Assembly: GCF_014132355.1 (NCBI RefSeq)
Contig: NZ_BLZO01000044.1
Span: 1-64,000, forward strand
Origin: Okeania sp. KiyG1
GTDB lineage: Bacteria > Cyanobacteriota > Cyanobacteriia > Cyanobacteriales > Microcoleaceae
DNA: 64,000 nucleotides
Direction: 5' to 3'
The notes under the pieces are model-generated. The model had not been told where the DNA came from and searched no databases. It saw only the letters and a program-made list of their open reading frames with translations. A program made the position numbers and the translations under genes. Below are positions 36,868 to 48,778 of the stretch, in pieces. Numbering within the stretch: position 1 is the first letter of the stretch; every line of letters starts with the position of its first letter.

Positions 36868-37395
36868 CTACTTATTCTTCCTACCAAATTTCCAATCTTC
36901 TCCACCGGGTAATAATGCCAAATTATCGTCAATAATTGCGGCTATTATCTCCGGTTGATGTGCGTAAATTAAGGATAATAAACTCAAAGCATTTTCAGTA
37001 ACTTGAGCTGTTTCTACCATTTCTTTTAGTTGAAACGGACTGCAATTGCCATCTAATGCTTCTACGCTTGCATCTCGAATAGCTGCTTCTATAACTTGCG
37101 CGATCGCTTTTCCCCATTCATCTTCTTTGATGTAATAAGAAGTTTTATTTGGCCTCAAATTCAAGACTTGAATTTCAATAATTGCATAGCGGATAGATGC
37201 TGCCCAGGAATTGGTTAAACGTCCTTCCACCTGATTTTTAATTAAATGGATTAACATCACAGTTAAATAGGATTTGATTTTTCTGATGATGTCTTTTTTA
37301 CTCATGGCATCCAGTTCGTCAATAAGTGCTAAGGCATCATGATTTCTACCTTCCATAATGCAAGTCCTTAAGTCGATTAATTCTTGAGTTGTCAT
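36868..37395 (-). CDS. DUF29-like protein, tandem copy A
   Basis: 175 residues, 'MTTQELIDLRTCIMEGRNHD', 'SKKDIIRKIKSYLTVMLIHL', 'LTNSWAASIRYAIIEI' and the ending 'LLPGGEDWKFGRKNK'. The N-terminal two thirds match the DUF29 pattern in divergent form. It lies 36 bp downstream of, and is over 75% identical to, copy B; the N-terminal halves are almost the same and the C-terminal halves differ more. Function unknown. Confidence 0.75.
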   Translation of the reverse strand: MTTQELIDLRTCIMEGRNHDALALIDELDAMSKKDIIRKIKSYLTVMLIHLIKNQVEGRLTNSWAASIRYAIIEIQVLNLRPNKTSYYIKEDEWGKAIAQVIEAAIRDASVEALDGNCSPFQLKEMVETAQVTENALSLLSLIYAHQPEIIAAIIDDNLALLPGGEDWKFGRKNK

Positions 37396-37431
37396 TAGTT
37401 ATTTTCCTCCTGAAATTAACAATTAAAAATG

Positions 37432-37959
37432 CTACTTATTTCTCTTACCAAACTTCCAATCTTCCCCACCGGGTAATAAAGTAAAATTTTGTTTAATAAC
37501 TGCTGACAAATCATTGGCAGAATAACTGTAAGTTAAGGCTAAAAAACTCTTAGTAGTTGCGATTACAGAATTTATATCCACCATTTCTTCCATTTGAAAT
37601 GGACTGTAAACCCCATTTTCAACCTCAGTGCTGGCACTATCAATAGCAGATTCTATAGCATTTTCTAACATTTCGTCCCATTCATCTTCTTTGATAAAAT
37701 AAGAGGTTTTATTTGGCCTCAAATTCAAGTCTTGAATTTCAATAATTGCATAGCGGATAGATGCGGCCCAGGAATTAGTTAAACGTTTTTCTACCTGATT
37801 TTTAATTAAGTGAGTTAACATCACAATTAAATAGGATTTGATTTTTCTGATGATGTCTTTTTTACTCATGGCATCTAGTTCGTCAATAATTGCTAAGGCA
37901 TCGTGATTTCTACCTTCCATAATGCAAGTCCTTAAATCAATTAATTCTTGAGTTGTCAT
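37432..37959 (-). CDS. DUF29-like protein, tandem copy B
   Basis: 175 residues, nearly identical to copy A through residue about 100 ('KNQVEKRLTNSWAASIRYAI') and then divergent ('MLENAIESAIDSASTEVENG' against 'AIAQVIEAAIRDASVEALDG') before the shared end 'LLPGGEDWKFGKRNK'. Both have the same AGGAG-like site before ATG. The pattern, conserved ends with a variable centre, suggests duplication followed by divergence or gene conversion. Function unknown. Confidence 0.75.
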   Translation of the reverse strand: MTTQELIDLRTCIMEGRNHDALAIIDELDAMSKKDIIRKIKSYLIVMLTHLIKNQVEKRLTNSWAASIRYAIIEIQDLNLRPNKTSYFIKEDEWDEMLENAIESAIDSASTEVENGVYSPFQMEEMVDINSVIATTKSFLALTYSYSANDLSAVIKQNFTLLPGGEDWKFGKRNK

Positions 37960-38629: not shown

Positions 38630-38944
38630 TTATAGTAACATTTTGAGACGCATCCGTACTAAAAAGGATGAGGGAGAAGCAGCAGATTTTTCCCGTTGTA
38701 CTTGCTCCCACTCCAGACGAATTTCTGCATTAATCTCATCCTCGTGGTCAAAATAATATGCCATTGCTGCATGAGCTTCCGAAAGCATTAAATAAGGATG
38801 TTGGCGACACATTTCATCAACAGACCATCCATAAGCTAAATAATCCATAACAATTTGAGCAACGCGCACCCTGGGTATTCTTTGTAGTCGTGGGGGTTGA
38901 TTTTCCTCTATTTTTATATGAGGATAGTTAACTTTTGCAGTCAT
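38630..38944 (-). CDS. DUF433 family protein
   Basis: 104 residues; 'PRVRVAQIVMDYLAYGWSVD', 'MCRQHPYLMLSEAHAAMAYY' and 'FDHEDEINAEIRLEWEQV' match DUF433 antitoxins. The usual toxin partner (DUF5615) is missing: downstream lies the UPF0175 gene instead. The tail 'PSSFLVRMRLKMLL' is unusual and may come from a change of frame near the end. Orphan antitoxin. Confidence 0.8.
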   Translation of the reverse strand: MTAKVNYPHIKIEENQPPRLQRIPRVRVAQIVMDYLAYGWSVDEMCRQHPYLMLSEAHAAMAYYFDHEDEINAEIRLEWEQVQREKSAASPSSFLVRMRLKMLL

Positions 38945-39024
38945 AGTTTTTGGGGATATTTTATATAGGAGAAATATTTATATGCAATTACACAGATTTA
39001 GCAAACTGTCAGGCGTTCTAAACT

Positions 39025-40122
39025 TTATAATTTAAAGCTAAACTTACTAAATTCCAATTCAGCTGCCCCATACCACCTATATATCTGATTGCGGAAAGTT
39101 TTCCATTTTGTGTAGACGTCTTTAAATGTTTTGTCCTGATCAGCATAGTCTTTATAAATTTCAAAAGCTTTTCTTTCGAATTCATTTAGGATGCTTTTTT
39201 CATAGGAAATCAAGTTAATTTTCTTATTATCATCATTCTCATTCCTTAGTTCTTGTAGTGCTGACTGATTTGAACTATCCTGCTTGGCAATTGTTTTCAG
39301 GCTAGCTTCAAAACAAGCCACTTTGAAGATTTCCTGATACTCGCCTGGTAGTTCATTCCATTTATCCAGGTTTACCAGCACATCATCCGAACTACCTGGC
39401 TCCCACCAACCAGGATAATAGTAGTAAGACGCAGCTTCATTTAAACCTAATTTCTTATCCTCATAAGGTCCACTCCACTTTGCTGCATCAATCTCATTAT
39501 TTTTCATCGCCTTCTGAATATCAACACCCGCTATATCTTTGCGGACTTTTACACCAAACTGCTTCATCACCTCAGCACCTAATCCAGGTATACGCATCCT
39601 TAGTCCTTCCATATCTTTTATATTAATTTGTTTCTTAAACCATCCTCCCATTTGGACACCAGTATAGCTTGCAGGAAAATTAATTATATTAAAGTCAGCA
39701 TATATTTTCTGCATTGCCTCTAGCCCACCCCCCTCAAAGAGCCAAGCATTCTGCTGCTGGATATTTAGGCCAAAAGGGACTCCTGTACCAAAGGCTAGTG
39801 CTGGGTTTTGATCCATATAATAGAAACTACTCGTATGACCACACTCTACTGTTCTATTTTTTACCGCGTTTAATACTTCTAGTGGTTCTACTATCTTTTT
39901 TGCAGGATAGGGCGTAATCACAAATCGCCCATTAGTCATTTTTTCGACGCGCTGACAAACAATTTTTGCAGCTTCATAATAGACTTGTTTTTCATCCCAG
40001 CTAGTCGCCATTCGCCATTTAATATTTGGTTGTGTCTGGTTAATTACATCATGACAAGATACTAGAGCGGTACTACTTGCTATGCCAATTGCACTGTTGT
40101 AAAAAAATTTTCTACGTTTCAT
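39025..40122 (-). CDS. TRAP-type substrate-binding lipoprotein (DctP family)
   Basis: 365 residues. The N-terminus 'MKRRKFFYNSAIGIASSTAL' has a twin-arginine-like motif and then a lipobox ending at Cys (about 23, 'ALVSC'), so export and lipid anchoring outside the inner membrane are expected. The body has DctP signatures 'WRMATSWDEKQVYYEAAKIV', 'MEGLRMRIPGLGAEVMKQFG' (substrate-carboxylate Arg in 'RMRIPG'), 'AAKWSGPYEDKKLGLNEAAS' and 'VLVNLDKWNELPGEYQEIF'. The family binds organic acids for TRAP transporters. No TRAP membrane genes are here; instead it is 20 bp downstream of a WD40/caspase operon, suggesting a receptor role. Intact. Confidence 0.88.
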   Translation of the reverse strand: MKRRKFFYNSAIGIASSTALVSCHDVINQTQPNIKWRMATSWDEKQVYYEAAKIVCQRVEKMTNGRFVITPYPAKKIVEPLEVLNAVKNRTVECGHTSSFYYMDQNPALAFGTGVPFGLNIQQQNAWLFEGGGLEAMQKIYADFNIINFPASYTGVQMGGWFKKQINIKDMEGLRMRIPGLGAEVMKQFGVKVRKDIAGVDIQKAMKNNEIDAAKWSGPYEDKKLGLNEAASYYYYPGWWEPGSSDDVLVNLDKWNELPGEYQEIFKVACFEASLKTIAKQDSSNQSALQELRNENDDNKKINLISYEKSILNEFERKAFEIYKDYADQDKTFKDVYTKWKTFRNQIYRWYGAAELEFSKFSFKL

Positions 40123-40142
40123 AATTTAGTCTTTTCTATGAA

Positions 40143-41210
40143 TTACCTGGTTAGCCAAGCTTTAATACTTTTAGATTGATAACCAAATATAAGGATTTGC
40201 CCATCCTTGTAAAAGGTAAGGGCAATATTCTCTTTTGAATTGTCTGATAAACTATAGGTCTGGAGTGGTTTATTGTTTACTAGATCCCAGACTCGAACAG
40301 TTCCGTCACGACTTCCACTAGCCAATTTTTGTCCGTCTAGGCTAATGTCAAGAGATGTAACAGCTCTTGAATGCCCCTCCAATGAGTCTATTAACTGCCC
40401 GGTTTTGAGATTCCAAAGTTTGATTGTTCCATTATCACTGCCACTAACAAGAAATTCATCATTCTTGAATATAAGATGTGTCACCTCACCTGAATGGCTC
40501 TTCAGAGATAGTTTTTCTTCACCATTTTCCAGGTTCCAAAGTTTAATTGTTCCGTTGCTGCTACTACTAGCAAGAGTTTTTCCATCTGGGCTAATTGTAA
40601 GAAACTTAATATCAGGGTGTTTTTCCCCAAAAGAGATTATTGGTTTCCCAGTTTGTAGATTCCAAAGTCTGATTGTTCCATCATCACTACCACTAGCAAG
40701 AATGTTTCCATCTACTGGGCTAATTGTAAGAGACTCAATCAGAAATGAATGTGCATTTTTAATAGAACGAGGGGATGCTTCTTTTGGTATTTCCCAAATG
40801 TAAATATCATTGCTCAAACCTCCACTAACAAGGATGTTACCATTTAGACTGAACGCAAGAGACCTAGTACTTCCATCCATCTTAAATGGAGGGTTTATTG
40901 TTGGTTCTTCTTTTCTCCAATTCCACAGTTGAATATTCCCATCATTACTTCCAGTAGCAATAATTTGTCCATCTGCACTGATGGCGATGGATTCAATCTG
41001 GCCTGGATTTCCAGTCAATGTTTTTTCTAAAGGAACTTTCTTCCCTAGACTAGGAGTTTCAATAGTGTGGTCAGTAGGACTTGTAGAATCTGATTTTTGC
41101 TGCTCTGGTTGACCTATCAGTTTCGACAACACAAATCCAGATATTACCAAAACAACTATACTAAGGAGCAAAAATAAGATTAATGAGATAGTTTCTCTTC
41201 TTTGGGACAT
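40143..41210 (-). CDS. Membrane-anchored seven-blade WD40 protein
   Basis: 355 residues. One N-terminal membrane helix, 'ISLILFLLLSIVVLVISGFV' (about 8-27), then a short linker and seven WD40 repeats, for example 'GSDDGTIRLWNLQTG', 'SSSNGTIKLWNLENG', 'GSDNGTIKLWNLKTG' and 'GSRDGTVRVWDLVNN'; the first ('GSNDGNIQLWNW') and last ('YQSKSIKAWL') complete the ring. WD40 rings are binding platforms; placement outside the membrane depends on topology, which follows a basic N-terminus inside. It is 18 bp downstream of the caspase gene and 20 bp upstream of the DctP gene. Intact; repeats are diverged, unlike the 123-bp units at the right end of the window. Confidence 0.9.
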   Translation of the reverse strand: MSQRRETISLILFLLLSIVVLVISGFVLSKLIGQPEQQKSDSTSPTDHTIETPSLGKKVPLEKTLTGNPGQIESIAISADGQIIATGSNDGNIQLWNWRKEEPTINPPFKMDGSTRSLAFSLNGNILVSGGLSNDIYIWEIPKEASPRSIKNAHSFLIESLTISPVDGNILASGSDDGTIRLWNLQTGKPIISFGEKHPDIKFLTISPDGKTLASSSSNGTIKLWNLENGEEKLSLKSHSGEVTHLIFKNDEFLVSGSDNGTIKLWNLKTGQLIDSLEGHSRAVTSLDISLDGQKLASGSRDGTVRVWDLVNNKPLQTYSLSDNSKENIALTFYKDGQILIFGYQSKSIKAWLTR

Positions 41211-41228
41211 TCTCTTAACTCCTGGTAT

Positions 41229-42740
41229 TCAACGATTAAATCGAGCAATTAGTAACCAGGAAGCCATTAAAATAGATATCAGCGCTCCACCAATAATAGC
41301 CATTACCATAAGAACTAAGAAAGAATAACTGCTAGAAATTTGATCATCTATAACACTTCGCAATGTCGGAACCAACGAAACCAGACAAAATGTGATAGAA
41401 GCAATCAATGGCAAAACAAATATTTTCATTTTGTAGCGGAATTGAACAAAAATCAAATTCGCTAAGATAACTAACAGCAACAGCCACAACCCAAACCAGG
41501 CATCAATCAAAGTAGCTTCTAGAAGACTAGCTAAAGCGATTGTTAACAAGACTCCTTCAAACCCAGTAAATGCAGACCTGAACAATAATTCTCTGGTAGA
41601 AGAGAAGTTAGTTGGCTGTCTAGAGGGTTGAGTTAGTTGAAGAACATTGTTTCTAAACAGGGTAGTACCCAACCAATTTCTTACTGTTTTTGTTTGTTCC
41701 ATAATTGGATCTGTATCTTCATGCCTAAGTCTCCATTTTTCCCGAAGGTCTTTTAAATTCTTTATTGTTCTTGGAGTCAAAGGATTCTCCTCAGCCATTT
41801 TATCAGCAACAGTCTTTTTATATCTATCTAACTTTTGCTGATAATCTTGGTAAGGCTTTAGAACTTCCTGCCTAATTGCTTTAGCTTCTTCCGGCTTTAG
41901 CTTAAGCTCAATCCGTCTTTCTTCCAAAATGATTTCACTAACTGAGTCAATCTGACCTTCAGACTCTTCAGCATATCTGGAAACTAATTTGCGATACTCT
42001 ATTTTGGGATCGCCGACAGGTGCTTTAGCGATGAAAATTTTGTGCCCGTCCTCCTCTATATCTATTTTTGGTTTCATTTTCATTGTGGTTTCTTCTTGAA
42101 CTTTTTGCTTCGCATACTCATGCAACTCATCAACAGAAATCCAACCGTCCCTATCTTTATCAGCAGCTCCTGTTTCAATACCCTCGACAAGGTAACGGGT
42201 GTATACCGATAGTTCTGATTCCTTGAAATAGGATAATCCGTAGAAACTAGATGATTTAAGAACAACCCGCCCCTTGCAAGTTAGCTGATTCTTGATATCT
42301 ACCACTCCTTTGGGATGTAAATTATAAGCTCCACTATAACAACAGTCAAGAATTATTACTTGTTGCTGAGAGTGACTATCTTTCATAATTTGACTTACTG
42401 TATTAGAATCAACCGCTGTTGATCTGAGGTATTTTTTGCTAGTCTTAGCAGTTGCAAAATAAAGACGACCACCGTCATCTATGAGTCCATGACCAGAAAA
42501 GTAGAACAGTATGAAATCATTCCTTCCCAGACCTGAAAACATTTCTTCAATTGTTCGTGTCATTGATGCGACATCAGGATTGATCATTTTCTTCACATGA
42601 GATGGCTCAAATTCTCCTAGCTGTGGATTAAGTAATACTCGCTCCATGGCCTCGACATCTTTTTTAGCAGCGGGAAGTGGTGATAACAATTCATCCGAGT
42701 CATACTCACTTACTCCGATCAGCAATGCTACTTTAACCAT
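41229..42740 (-). CDS. Caspase-family protease with EF-hand-like loop and membrane helices
   Basis: 503 residues. Residues about 1-220 form a C14 caspase (metacaspase) p20-like domain: 'KVALLIGVSEYDSDELL', His in 'FILFYFSGHGLID' and Cys in 'VIILDCCYSGAY'. About 193-205, 'DKDRDGWISVDEL' is a canonical 12-residue EF-hand loop (D-x-D-x-D-G-x-I-x-x-x-E), pointing to calcium binding. A charged, likely coiled-coil region (about 230-350) follows, then four hydrophobic segments (about 395-500) that would place the protein in the membrane. ATG overlaps the EACC1-like stop by 8 bp. Calcium-activated metacaspases are known; whether this one is calcium-dependent is inferred. Intact. Confidence 0.92.
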   Translation of the reverse strand: MVKVALLIGVSEYDSDELLSPLPAAKKDVEAMERVLLNPQLGEFEPSHVKKMINPDVASMTRTIEEMFSGLGRNDFILFYFSGHGLIDDGGRLYFATAKTSKKYLRSTAVDSNTVSQIMKDSHSQQQVIILDCCYSGAYNLHPKGVVDIKNQLTCKGRVVLKSSSFYGLSYFKESELSVYTRYLVEGIETGAADKDRDGWISVDELHEYAKQKVQEETTMKMKPKIDIEEDGHKIFIAKAPVGDPKIEYRKLVSRYAEESEGQIDSVSEIILEERRIELKLKPEEAKAIRQEVLKPYQDYQQKLDRYKKTVADKMAEENPLTPRTIKNLKDLREKWRLRHEDTDPIMEQTKTVRNWLGTTLFRNNVLQLTQPSRQPTNFSSTRELLFRSAFTGFEGVLLTIALASLLEATLIDAWFGLWLLLLVILANLIFVQFRYKMKIFVLPLIASITFCLVSLVPTLRSVIDDQISSSYSFLVLMVMAIIGGALISILMASWLLIARFNR

Positions 42741-43155
42741 TGTTAATTTCTGATATTGATTTAACCAACTTTTCTACATCTTGTATAGCTGCCGATAAGT
42801 CTTTTTGACTCCCTACTTTCACCTTAATTGATGCTTTTTTATCAATTTTTACTTCAACCTCAGTTGCTTTCCCAGACAGACGCTCCCATAAAAATGTTAT
42901 AAAAGTCTTTATATTTGCTAGATTAATCTCTACATTTAAGATTCCTGGTTCTTGCTCATCACCTTTAGCTCCTTCAGGTAATTTTGAAACAGGTACACGC
43001 GTAACTTCTACTTCTTCCAAGTTATTACGCATTTGTCTCAACAAATTCCGTGTAAAGACTTCTAGTAGTTCTTCATCATCTGGATTATTCGAATCTCTTA
43101 GATTATTAGAATCTCTAAAATCTATTGTGAACTGAAAATTAGATGTGTTAAGCAT
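42733..43155 (-). CDS. EACC1-like effector-associated protein
   Basis: 140 residues with no signal or membrane segment. Core pattern: 'LEEVEVTRVPVSKLPEGAKG', then 'NIKTFITFLWERLSGKATEV' and 'VEVKIDKKASIKVKV', ending in a helix 'DLSAAIQDVEKLVKSI'. This resembles the EACC1 (effector-associated constant component 1) family described in conflict systems of multicellular bacteria and often found beside caspase-like proteases. The assignment rests on pattern and neighbour, without a database search. It is the first gene of the operon and overlaps the caspase start by 8 bp. Intact. Confidence 0.65.
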   Translation of the reverse strand: MLNTSNFQFTIDFRDSNNLRDSNNPDDEELLEVFTRNLLRQMRNNLEEVEVTRVPVSKLPEGAKGDEQEPGILNVEINLANIKTFITFLWERLSGKATEVEVKIDKKASIKVKVGSQKDLSAAIQDVEKLVKSISEINNG

Positions 43156-43674
43156 ATTAACTTTCCAATAATGTGATGTAAGTTAAACAACAATTTATGA
43201 AGCAAATAGAAAACATTGGCCTTTCATCTGGGTAATTACAGGCTCAAAAATTTTCCCTGTAAGTAGGCATTTATGTAACTTTAACAGTATTGTAACCAAC
43301 TTTAACATGATTTTTTTAGTAGGCGCTATATTAGAGTCAGGATTTACACAGAGACTCTACATATAGTGAGGGAAAATACTATTTGCCCCTACAGATGGTG
43401 GTTTAAAAGTCAATTTGTGTAAGTCCTGACTAATAGAAATCTCCAAAAATCAAAAATAAAATCAATTCTCACACAGAAATTATCAGTTCTTTCTCCCTAT
43501 TGCCTACTGCCTACTCCCTCTTTTCTGGAGATGTCTAATATCATAATACCAGTATCTGATTAACATAATTTTTGAGAAACAGCAATACTTTTGATAATTG
43601 GTATTAAACTTGGCTAATATTTCATATTGTATGCTTAAAGTTAATTGAGTTTTATAAAGCAGGAATTAAAGGCA
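43156..43674. repeat. Intergenic with a MITE (43338-43428)
   Basis: The 91-bp element has ends CAGGATTTACACA and TGTGTAAGTCCTG, a variant of the CAGGACTTACGCA family. The 180 bp before it lead up to the EACC1 start and should contain its promoter; I see no certain -10/-35 pair. A short CTACTGCCTACT patch (43501-43520) has no known meaning. Confidence 0.75.
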
Positions 43675-45207: not shown

Positions 45208-45719
45208 ATGATTGCCCAAGAAAAAAAACAACCTAAAACTAATCATTTCCTTACCTTAACTATTCTATGGTTATTCGCAGCAGTGAGCGATCGCTTCTGG
45301 TTTGCTTTTGATAAGTCTGTACCTGCTTGGGATCAAGCTGACTATCTCACGGGTTCCCTGACTTACTGGCGTGCTTTTCAAAATGTGCATCTGTTTTCTG
45401 GGGAATGGTGGCAGCATTTTTGGGAACTTTCGCCGAAGGTTCCGCCGTTGACTTATATTCTTACTGTTCCATTTCAAGTGATTTTTGGTAGGGGTGCTGA
45501 TCAAGCAACTTTAGTACATCTATTTTTTAGTGCTATTTTACTGGCTTCAGTTTATAGTTTAGGCAGCAAATTATTTAATCAAAAAGTTGCTTTTTGGGCA
45601 GCAGTTTTATGTATATTATTTCCGGGTTTATATAGATATCGTTTACAGTATTTACTCGATTATCCTCTCACGGCAATGGTGACTTTAAGTTTCTGTTGTT
45701 TAACGTTTTGGTATTGGGA

Positions 45720-46510
45720 TAGGGAACAGGGAATAGGGAATAGGGAACAGGCAACAGGCAACAGGCAACAGGCAACAGGCAACAGGGAAAATAAAGCGGG
45801 AAAAATTGACAAAGAAAATTTTAATTTTAATTCTGAAACAAAGTCTATTTTCGATAAATTACTGTCAAAAATATCTGCTATAGGGAACAGGGAACAGGCA
45901 ACAGGCAACAGGGAACAGGGAATGGGGAAAATTGACAAGAAAAAATTTAATTTTAATTCTGAAACAACGTCTATTTTCGATAAATTACTGTCAAAAATAT
46001 CTGCTATAGGGAACAGGGAACAGGGAACAGGGAACAGGGAACAGGGAATGGGGAAAATTGACAAGAAAAAATTTAATTTTAATTCTGAAACAACGTCTAT
46101 TTTCGATAAATTACTGTCAAAAATATCTGCTATAGGGAACAGGGAACAGGCAACAGGCAACAGGGAACAGGGAATGGGGAAAATTGACAAGAAAAAATTT
46201 AATTTTAATTCTGAAACAACGTCTATTTTCGATAAATTACTGTCAAAAATATCTGCTATAGGGAACAGGGAACAGGGAACAGGCAACAGGGAACAGGGAA
46301 TGGGGAAAATTGACAAGAAAAATTTAATTTTAATTCTGAAACAACGTCTATTTTCGATAAATTACTGTCAAAAATATCTGCTATAGGGAACAGGGAACAG
46401 GGAACAGGCAACAGGGAACAGGGAATGGGGAAAATTGACAAGAAAAATTTAATTTTAATTCTGAAACAACGTCTATTTTCGATAAATTACTGTCAAAAAT
46501 ATCTGCTGTA
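45720..46510. repeat. 126-bp tandem array within a coding frame
   Basis: GGGAACA/GGCAACA heptads alternate with a non-heptad segment coding 'KIDKKKFNFNSETTSIFDKL'. GGGGAAAATTGACAAG of successive units begins at 45924, 46050, 46176, 46302 and 46427, after an initial diverged unit at about 45799. Spacing is 126 bp (18 x 7 and 42 x 3), so units keep both the heptad phase and the reading frame. The last two units lost one A each in an A-run, which ends the frame near 46386. The minus strand therefore also shows a repetitive Pro/Cys/Ser shadow frame. Confidence 0.95.
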
Positions 46511-46613: not shown

Positions 46614-48778
46614 ATTTACTTATATTTTTAACTCTAAAAGATTTGCTTTGGGCAACTGCTTTTGGCTTGGCTTTTGGTGCTGCAATTTTAGTTAAACAAA
46701 CTACCATATTTTTTCTCTTCATTCCGTTACTTTCGATAGGAATAAATATTCTCAGAAAACGGCAGTGGCAAAAGTTAATTCAACTAATTTTTTCTCTGTG
46801 TTTATCTATAGCAATTTTTTACCCTTGGGCGAGAACAAATTGGCTATTAATGTTAACTGCTGGTAAACGGGCAACTGTAGATTCTGCTATTGCTGAAGGC
46901 GACCCCAATTTATTGAGTTTGGATGCTTGGCTTTATTATTGGAAACTGCTGCCTTATCATGTTTCTTTGCCTCTATTAATTATTCCCATTGGCGGATTAA
47001 TTTTTTACTTTATTCGGTCGTTCAAAAAACAGGATAAATTCTCATCAAATTACCTTCACTCTTGCCGATGGTTAGCTATTTTTTTAATTGGCGGTTATCT
47101 CATTTGCTCCCTTAATATCAACAAAGATTTTCGCTACACTTTGCCATTATTGCCAGTTTTATCAATTTTATTAGCCTTTGGTTTAATGCAGTTTCCGATA
47201 AAAGTAGGAAAACAAATTCGCTGGTTTACTATTGGTTTAGCCATTATTTTAATGTTATTAAATCTCTGGCCTGTAGGTGGAATTTTCTTCAGAAAAATTT
47301 CTGCCTGGTTGAGTCCTGGTGGTGTTTATTATGCACATTTAGGTAAAGAATGGCCTCATCAAAAAGTAATTGCTGAAATTGTCAAAACTGACCCCTATTT
47401 ACGGTCAACTTTAGGAGTTTTACCCTCCACTCCAGAAATTAATCAACACAACTTAAATTATTACGGTGCTTTGCAAAATTTACAGGTTTACGGTAGGCAA
47501 GTAGGAACTAATTTAAAACAAGTACCTCAAGATGTGCGATCGCTCTCTTGGTTTGTCACGAAAACTAATGACCAAGGTTCGATAAAAAGAATTAAAAAAG
47601 CTCAAGCTGCTATTGTTAATATCATCGAACAAAACCCAAATTTTCAACTACAAAAAAGTTGGCAGTTGCCAGATAATAGCAACTTAAATCTTTATCATAA
47701 TCAGTTTTTACCTGTAGAAGTTCATCCTCTGAATAAACCACAGGAAAAAGTCAAATTAGACTATGTGATTTTATCGCCAAAAATTAGACCGGGAGTGCCA
47801 ATACCTATTACCTATAAATGGTCTGGTTCTTGGCAAGAATTACAGTCCGGTTTAGTGTTGTTAACTTATCGCCGAGAAAATATAGCAATTCCCACAGTTA
47901 CGAAGTACATTTATAATCCCCCTAAATCCCCCTTACAAAGGGGAACTTTGAACGTTCCCCCCTTACAAAGGGGATATAAAACTGTATCTCATAGATTAAA
48001 GAACTGCTGTATTAATCAACCACAATTTCAGCAATTAGTTTCTGACAATATCTCAGAAAAATCTATTACAAGTTTCATTCACGATCGCGCTATTGGAATG
48101 GGGAGTTTATACCCTGGTCTGTCTCCAGCAAATAAGTCTGAGGTCGGGTTTGAAATTATTGAAAGAATAGGAATGTTACCCCCTGCCAATATTTCATCGG
48201 GAAATTACATATTAGAAGCGACTTACCTTAACCGGAAAACTGGAGAAACTTATCCTATTCCTATACAACCCCCCGTGCGTGTCGAAATTGACCCCCAGGC
48301 CGAAATATTACCAGCACCAGAATTAGATTTAGTGACACAGTTACGGATGTGGGGGCAAAAGTTGCCTCTGGGAATAAAAGGTTTAGAAACTGTATTTGAG
48401 GAAGTAGGGCGAGTTAATCAGTACGATCCAGTCCAAGATTATACCAAACAAGCAGAAAAAACTTTGGCATATCGTTTGCAGCAAGACCCCAATAATTTAG
48501 AGTTGCTTTATGGGTTGAGTTTGGCCAGAGTTTTACAACAGGATGCAGATGGAGCGATCGCTGCTTTGACTAGAGTAACTGAGTTAGATTCCCAAAACCC
48601 CTTTGCTTATGCTTATTTAGCTTTTGTTTATCTATATAACTTAAATCCAGGGGCGGCAGAAATAGCTTTGAAGTCTGCTTTGGAGCTTGACCCCACTCAG
48701 CCAGAAATTAGAGCTTTAAATGGAGTTGCTGCTTTGATGCAAGGAAATGTATTTAAGGCGTGGCGTTATCTGAAATAG

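Follow-up and report, generated by a model that had tools for sequence, protein, structure and literature searches.

In a 64,000-nucleotide stretch of the genome of Okeania sp. KiyG1 (contig NZ_BLZO01000044.1, positions 1 to 64,000; hereafter the window, meaning this whole stretch), four intact open reading frames (ORFs) lie together on the minus strand at 39025–43155 and encode an EACC1-like protein, a caspase, a WD40 protein and a DctP-family solute-binding protein. We propose, at a probability of roughly 0.55, that an EACC1-caspase system of the conflict or cell-death type has here been rewired into a membrane receptor. The proposal draws on the order of the genes, the similarity of the two membrane parts of the cassette to a kinase module, the co-occurrence of these parts across genomes, the catalytic motifs of the caspase and the openness of three of the four reading frames. 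The source genome measures 11 Mb, and a second copy of the cassette is present in a member of the same genus, Okeania sp. SIO3B5 (G001).

The four genes are tightly packed, with an overlap of 8 bp between the EACC1-like and caspase genes and gaps of 18 bp between the caspase and WD40 genes and 20 bp between the WD40 and DctP genes. An earlier note on this DNA had reported this gene order, strand, spacing and intactness, all of which were confirmed from the ORF coordinates. The features of the cassette are as follows.

42733–43155, minus strand: EACC1-like protein, 140 aa; first gene, its stop overlapping the caspase start by 8 bp
41229–42740, minus strand: EACC1-associated caspase with a C-terminal four-helix membrane domain, 503 aa (PF00656, NF047832)
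42126–42161, minus strand: EF-hand-type loop DKDRDGWISVDE within the caspase domain, read from the sequence
41232–41618, minus strand: four-transmembrane-helix (4TM) membrane domain of the caspase, with an AFTGF motif; a homologue of it forms the C-terminus of cyanobacterial Ser/Thr kinases
40143–41210, minus strand: membrane-anchored WD40 protein, 355 aa (Pfam WD40), with seven blades as counted by eye
41106–41210, minus strand: MSQxxET anchor segment, residues 1–35 of the WD40 protein (alignment; hidden Markov model (HMM) of anchors of periplasmic binding proteins (PBPs) only)
39025–40122, minus strand: DctP-family solute-binding protein, 365 aa (PF03480), with a twin-arginine (Tat) and lipobox-type N-terminus by eye
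38958–43556, no strand: stretch present in the window and absent from the congener G002 (blastn), in which the flanking blocks are 14 bp apart

A membrane domain shared with Ser/Thr kinases

Hydropathy analysis placed four helices at the C-terminus of the caspase, with helices 1 and 2 almost touching, and one helix at the N-terminus of the WD40 protein, while no helix of DctP exceeded the cut-off. A search with the window caspase alone returned several other proteins (reading frames of ~460–530 aa) that were matched solely through caspase residues ~370–500. On reading, these proteins were Ser/Thr kinases whose C-terminus is the same four-helix domain, with a four-cysteine prefix in the one tested. 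A profile of the 4TM domain matched 39 of 60 relatives and, with scoring limited to 11 candidates per genome, 91 of 386 genomes sampled from the phylum; nearly all of these genomes had one match, and no match was found in G002–G005. The 50 4TM loci that were read, which were the best matches from the phylum and relatives surveys, comprise 46 kinases by motif, the two cassette caspases (window and SIO3B5) and two unclear cases. When an HMM was built from 37 kinase rows only, with the cassettes left out, just two caspases among 1096 ORFs matched it, those of the window (E = 2.1e-17) and of SIO3B5 (E = 2.4e-17). Among the loci read, the 4TM domain of the caspase otherwise sits on Ser/Thr kinases, two unclear cases aside.

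An anchor shared with kinase-linked binding proteins

The 355-aa protein matches the WD40 family of Pfam at E = 6.7e-54 and begins with MSQRRET in the window and MSQRKET in SIO3B5, followed in both by one helix. Similar N-termini are found beside the kinases: in 33 of 40 extended 4TM loci, which were hand-chosen and in some cases located at contig ends, the next downstream gene begins with an anchor of the MSQKNET type and one helix, and further such genes often follow. Proteins were called anchored by the motif together with hand-picked variants; under a stricter motif the count is 37 ORFs, spread over 26 of the 40 loci. All 50 anchored downstream proteins scanned contain PBP domains (29 PBP_like_2, 21 Peripla_BP_6), and their lengths also split 29/21. 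Among 649 ORFs of at least 150 aa in the loci of the caspase survey, the combination of motif and helix is limited to the two cassette WD40 proteins. The PBP-only anchor HMM, from which the cassettes were left out, ranked the window WD40 protein first (E = 0.0012) and its SIO3B5 counterpart second (E = 0.045) among 1096 ORFs, the next having an E-value of 1.6.

Across the 60 genomes, anchors were found in 35 of the 39 with a 4TM domain and in none of the 21 without (Fisher p = 4e-12 with the two Okeania omitted, a value that ignores kinship among the genomes and is for this reason too small); the search profiles used here included the cassette rows. Anchor and 4TM genes lie on separate contigs in some genomes (such as G033, G030 and G015) and still co-occur. 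Thirty anchor loci were fetched, of which 28 contain a PBP and the remaining two are the cassettes. Because the anchor starts the next gene, because cassette-free profiles recover it and because the two parts co-occur among genomes even across contigs, the 4TM domain and the anchor look like a matched pair spanning a gene boundary. Since both membrane parts of the cassette are picked out by cassette-free profiles, and since the anchors follow the 4TM domain so closely from genome to genome, the cassette reads as a kinase-receptor module in which both input and output have been swapped. The resemblance of both parts to a matched kinase/binding-protein pair suggests that an outside signal may control the protease.

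In both the cyanobacterial 4TM kinase system and the cassette, the output protein ends in the 4TM domain, the next gene encodes an MSQxxET-anchored partner and a binding protein would serve as input. They differ in that the output is a Ser/Thr kinase in the former and a Peptidase_C14 caspase in the latter, the anchored domain is a PBP in the former and WD40 in the latter, and the DctP of the cassette belongs to another binding-protein family than the PBPs of the kinases. By appearance, the 4TM Ser/Thr kinases and their MSQxxET-anchored PBPs, often in tandem, constitute a widespread and little-described cyanobacterial receptor-kinase system (L177, L179–L181, L194–L313); in the open-licence literature we found no description of this kinase-PBP arrangement, nor of the exact architecture of the cassette.

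EACC1-associated caspases in cyanobacteria

The window caspase matches Peptidase_C14 (PF00656) at E = 1.4e-17 in Pfam and keeps the motifs SGHG and DCCYS, which we take to hold the catalytic His and Cys. It reaches 169.9 bits with NF047832 ('caspase, EACC1-associated type'), for which the cut-off is 140. In PADLOC, the models matched were 'caspase' for the caspase and HEAT-ARM_XIII for the WD40 protein, with no match for the EACC1-like protein or DctP. Pairs of EACC1 and caspase genes are common in cyanobacteria, and at least 45 of the 386 phylum genomes gave a caspase match at E ≤ 1e-25 (up to three candidates scored per genome). Among 89 caspase loci, which are the stronger matches of the relatives and phylum surveys (90 were read, and L144 was excluded as having no caspase match), 56 contain an ORF of 100–165 aa directly upstream, identified by position and size, of which 50 are BLAST-similar to the window EACC1 and one (L126) is probably a mis-picked ORF. 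The caspase C-termini vary (FGE-sulfatase 24, GUN4 22, Peripla_BP_6 7, TPR 6 and WD40 4 among 80 scanned), with PBP and WD40 domains thus fused to other caspases of the survey in 7 and 4 of the 80, respectively. WD40 and Peripla_BP_6 are also among the accessory domains given in the accessible text of a survey of cyanobacterial orthocaspases. As for separate genes, a WD40-like ORF lies ~490 bp upstream of another caspase gene of SIO3B5 on the same strand (L140), and WD40-like ORFs are found farther from caspase genes in L114, L118 and L164.

The small EACC1-like gene described in the earlier note stands by its position and by family alignment, on which the identity of the 140-aa protein rests, but not by a family model, as no EACC1 model of Pfam or NCBIfam matches the window copy. 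Of 56 cyanobacterial counterparts in the alignment, 12 match PF19953 (EACC1) at E ≤ 0.1, the best at 1e-4. A glycine pattern present in 32 of the 56 members is absent from the window copy, and no transmembrane (TM) helix was detected in it, with a best 19-residue hydropathy of 1.12 and just one of the 56 members above 1.6.

Kaur et al. 2020 (PMC7159879) described the EACC1 two-gene caspase system as their System 4; according to the accessible text it is prevalent in actinobacteria, and one variant has TM helices and after them a PBP domain. The cyanobacterial cassette resembles it in that a small EACC1-like gene immediately precedes, on the 5′ side, a caspase-superfamily gene of variable C-terminus. 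It departs from System 4 in that what look like sensor parts are encoded by genes of their own downstream, in that its membrane domain is of the kinase type and in that the EACC1-like protein has no clear TM helix and lacks the glycine pattern, one TM helix with a glycine patch being characteristic of the EACC1 of System 4. This description and the NF047832 score bear out the claim of the earlier note that EACC1 and caspase form a known pair.

The EF-hand, which that note had singled out as the mark of a calcium-binding executor, is not special. The loop DKDRDGWISVDE is canonical by its letters, but Pfam EF-hand models score it under the cut-off, and calcium binding is a prediction only. As such loops occur in 48 or 45 of the 89 related caspases, depending on which of two patterns is used, the presence of the loop in about half of them is no mark of special calcium control for the window caspase, and calcium control as a special feature was dropped. 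The four caspase helices and the membrane tether of the WD40 protein that had been noted were recovered, the latter as a single helix; the WD40 blades, seven by eye, amount to six stretches under the Pfam WD40 model.

The DctP protein and its genomic context

The DctP protein matches PF03480 at E = 1.1e-45 in Pfam, and its solved-structure matches are 7ug8 (E = 2.9e-101, the best; named Ketoacid-binding protein) and 2hzk (E = 9.3e-73; named SmoM), the latter presumably being the ketoacid binder TakP. While it belongs to the same sequence family as these solute-binding proteins of tripartite ATP-independent periplasmic (TRAP) transporters, it differs from them in having no nearby DctM and in the change of many otherwise invariant residues. 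In 17 other DctPs 161 alignment columns are invariant; the window copy departs from 44 of them and the SIO3B5 copy from 32, and binding by the window protein may therefore be altered or lost. A tree of 19 DctPs separates the two cassette copies from the other 17 (support 100/100) and gives the window copy a long branch (0.46).

DctP matches were found in 34 of the 60 relatives and at least 75 of the 386 phylum genomes (up to five candidates scored per genome), and DctM in 31 of the 60 relatives, all 31 among the 34 with DctP. No DctM (PF06808) lies near the cassette DctP, as DctM is present on contig C118 only and DctP on C44 and C172; DctQ was not searched for. The earlier note had drawn attention to the lack of TRAP permease genes, and this stands as far as DctM is concerned, but it is normal in Okeania. 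All six Okeania genomes carry a single full DctM on a different contig from their DctPs, so that a neighbourhood without permease is not special, and its absence was dropped as a special feature. In a few other genomes, such as G046, G041 and G010, DctM and DctP are adjacent. Contig C172 of the window genome (L005) carries three tandem DctP genes, the last two of which are separated by a transposase-like ORF (recognised by eye); no permease gene was seen nearby.

A wider co-occurrence of DctP with EACC1-caspase genes, which the earlier note had proposed to tabulate, did not appear: DctP usually lies elsewhere (as tandem orphans in Okeania, near DctM in a few other genomes), and EACC1-caspase pairs are usually without it. 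DctP was found near 3 of the 89 caspase loci (window, SIO3B5 and G286), of which just 10 extend for 5 kb in both directions; when the listed caspase and DctP matches were compared by eye in whole-contig coordinates, no further DctP lay within 5 kb. As two of the three are this cassette, there is no general association, and DctP beside EACC1-caspase as a general rule was dropped. In G286 (L106) the DctP gene ends ~550 bp upstream of a different EACC1-caspase pair on the same strand, which could be chance. A search of the open-licence literature found no paper on caspases with TRAP or solute-binding genes, nor on Okeania metacaspases. The link of DctP to the cassette is weaker than the evidence joining the caspase and WD40 genes, and we put the odds that DctP has a working role in it just short of even.

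The cassette across Okeania

The cassette is known in two genomes, both of marine cyanobacteria. A scan of genome contigs returned one locus, that of SIO3B5, which is the only one of five sampled congeners with a syntenic counterpart; the same four genes occur there in the same order, on the other side of the DUF433 gene than in the window. The EACC1 gene of SIO3B5 is broken, with five in-frame stops, and the caspase, WD40 and DctP frames are open. The flanks of the cassette are conserved across Okeania, the cassette itself is not, and it is absent at the corresponding place in G003–G005. The direct repeats found by the cassette are just WD40 repeats or short ones. Downstream of DctP in SIO3B5 (L057:7038–7793) lies an in-frame chimera of an EACC1 copy, a caspase scrap and a UPF0175 antitoxin, which points to past rearrangement.

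Compared with SIO3B5, synonymous divergence (dS) is 0.25 for the cassette and 0.11 for four flanking genes, and the ratio of nonsynonymous to synonymous divergence (dN/dS) is 0.61 for the four cassette genes (0.46–0.75 per gene) against 0.13 for the flanking genes, which fits exchange or separate acquisition, together with fast change. In a simple simulation, neutral substitutions at half the divergence observed from SIO3B5 gave no-stop probabilities of 0.04 for the caspase, 0.03 for the WD40 gene and 0.01 for DctP; the intactness of these three genes exceeds chance and is unlikely without selection. The same simulation gave 0.49 for EACC1, so the openness of its frame in the window says little.

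Proposed mechanism and alternative explanations

A more specific and tentative proposal, which we would back at somewhat less than even odds, is a death-receptor-like device in which the 4TM and MSQxxET module has moved from kinases to an EACC1 caspase and been refitted with a WD40 propeller and a solute-binding protein, the caspase being gated by an outside ligand. For the rewired membrane receptor itself, we infer the contacts between the proteins, their topology, the ligand, the direction of the signal, the activity of the protease and its outcome by analogy with the kinase module and with GlnH-GlnX-PknG, as follows. The caspase would lie in the cytoplasm, carried on the four-helix domain, with EACC1 as its cytoplasmic regulator, and the WD40 propeller would lie outside, held by its single-helix MSQxxET anchor, and the lipoprotein-type DctP would either dock on the propeller or compete for it. 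An outside ligand, either a small acid on DctP or a protein on the propeller, would by its binding move the anchor helix relative to the 4TM domain, and this movement would release or cluster the caspase domain. Of the sensor-relay-protease model put forward in the earlier note, the membrane coupling is strengthened by the match of the caspase 4TM domain and the WD40 anchor to the two halves of the kinase module, while the DctP part is weaker and calcium is not special.

Several observations weigh against a rewired membrane receptor. The anchored gene is missing in 7 of the 40 extended 4TM loci and in 4 of the 39 genomes with a 4TM domain, the scores of the WD40 anchors against the PBP-only profile are weak, the rows of the kinase-only profile were collected through a profile containing the cassettes, and the genome counts for anchor and 4TM domain are not independent of kinship. 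Four of the six Okeania genomes have no cassette, the cassette evolves fast, its EACC1 gene is interrupted by stops in SIO3B5, and DctP has no anchor and may have altered or lost its binding.

One alternative is that the caspase and the anchored WD40 protein form a receptor pair whose propeller itself senses an outside protein, DctP being a passenger copied from the TRAP solute-binding genes of the genome. The scarcity of DctP near caspases (3 of 89 loci), the tandem DctP genes elsewhere in Okeania, the lack of an MSQxxET anchor on DctP, its dS, the highest of the four genes (with overlapping intervals), and its window branch of 0.46 would all suit a passenger. However, the four-gene order recurs in SIO3B5, the DctP frame is intact in both species where ~4.6 stops would be expected on the window side under neutral simulation, and the related kinase module regularly has binding-protein domains, so that we regard a passenger as unlikely, though worth serious consideration. 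It is distinctly improbable that an ordinary EACC1-caspase conflict system is simply stranded on a decaying accessory island, its membrane parts being leftovers and its downstream genes under relaxed selection. Such decay would be in keeping with the high dN/dS of each gene, the EACC1 pseudogene in SIO3B5, the patchy presence of the cassette and the EACC1-caspase scraps close by in SIO3B5, but not with the preserved catalytic motifs or with caspase, WD40 and DctP frames that stay open in both species at 10–20% nucleotide difference, given the no-stop chances above.

That four unrelated genes are adjacent by chance might be argued from the general rarity of DctP adjacency and from the four other caspase loci with a nearby WD40 gene, which are arranged differently. 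Yet a second species has the identical gene order in another position relative to DUF433, and the 4TM and anchor modules are matched, which makes pure chance very improbable indeed. On the chance grouping that the earlier note had considered, the outcome is accordingly divided: DctP shows no general association with caspases, but the four-gene order recurs in one related species. The pairing of caspase and WD40 protein we consider likely, and the reading that we prefer is a membrane receptor made by rewiring a system of the conflict or cell-death type.

Precedents and significance

According to the accessible text of a 2012 paper (PMC3501461), a cyanobacterial metacaspase has four TM helices and a CHASE2 domain as receptor, which probably faces the outside, so the idea of a receptor-caspase is not new. 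It shares with the cassette a cyanobacterial caspase homologue, a proposed outside receptor and membrane helices, and differs in that receptor, of the CHASE2 type, and protease form one chain, whereas they are separate proteins in the cassette; the accessible text mentions no separate anchored partner for it. The GlnH-GlnX-PknG system is a precedent for a solute-binding protein steering a Ser/Thr kinase (PMC6069109, PMC8546545). As far as the accessible text of these papers goes, an outside lipoprotein solute-binding protein, a membrane protein and an inside Ser/Thr kinase are encoded there in one operon, which we offer as an analogy of layout; PknG is a kinase without TM domains, and the output is metabolic. 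The cassette provides a testable idea of how an outside signal might reach a bacterial caspase-like protease, an open question in cyanobacterial cell death, with receptor and protease as separate proteins that would be coupled via a module also serving kinases. It further draws attention to this coupling module as it is seen, in kinases with anchored binding proteins, in many cyanobacterial genomes.

Other features of the window

The DUF433 gene beside the cassette (38630–38944) stands without the 143-aa neighbour ORF found in SIO3B5 (L057:12366–12797). Tandem 175-aa DUF29 genes occupy 36868–37959, and their copy number seems variable between Okeania genomes. On the other side of the cassette, a gene that is a single 1023-aa ORF in SIO3B5 is split in the window (45208–46386 and 46643–48778) around a ~126-bp repeat array.

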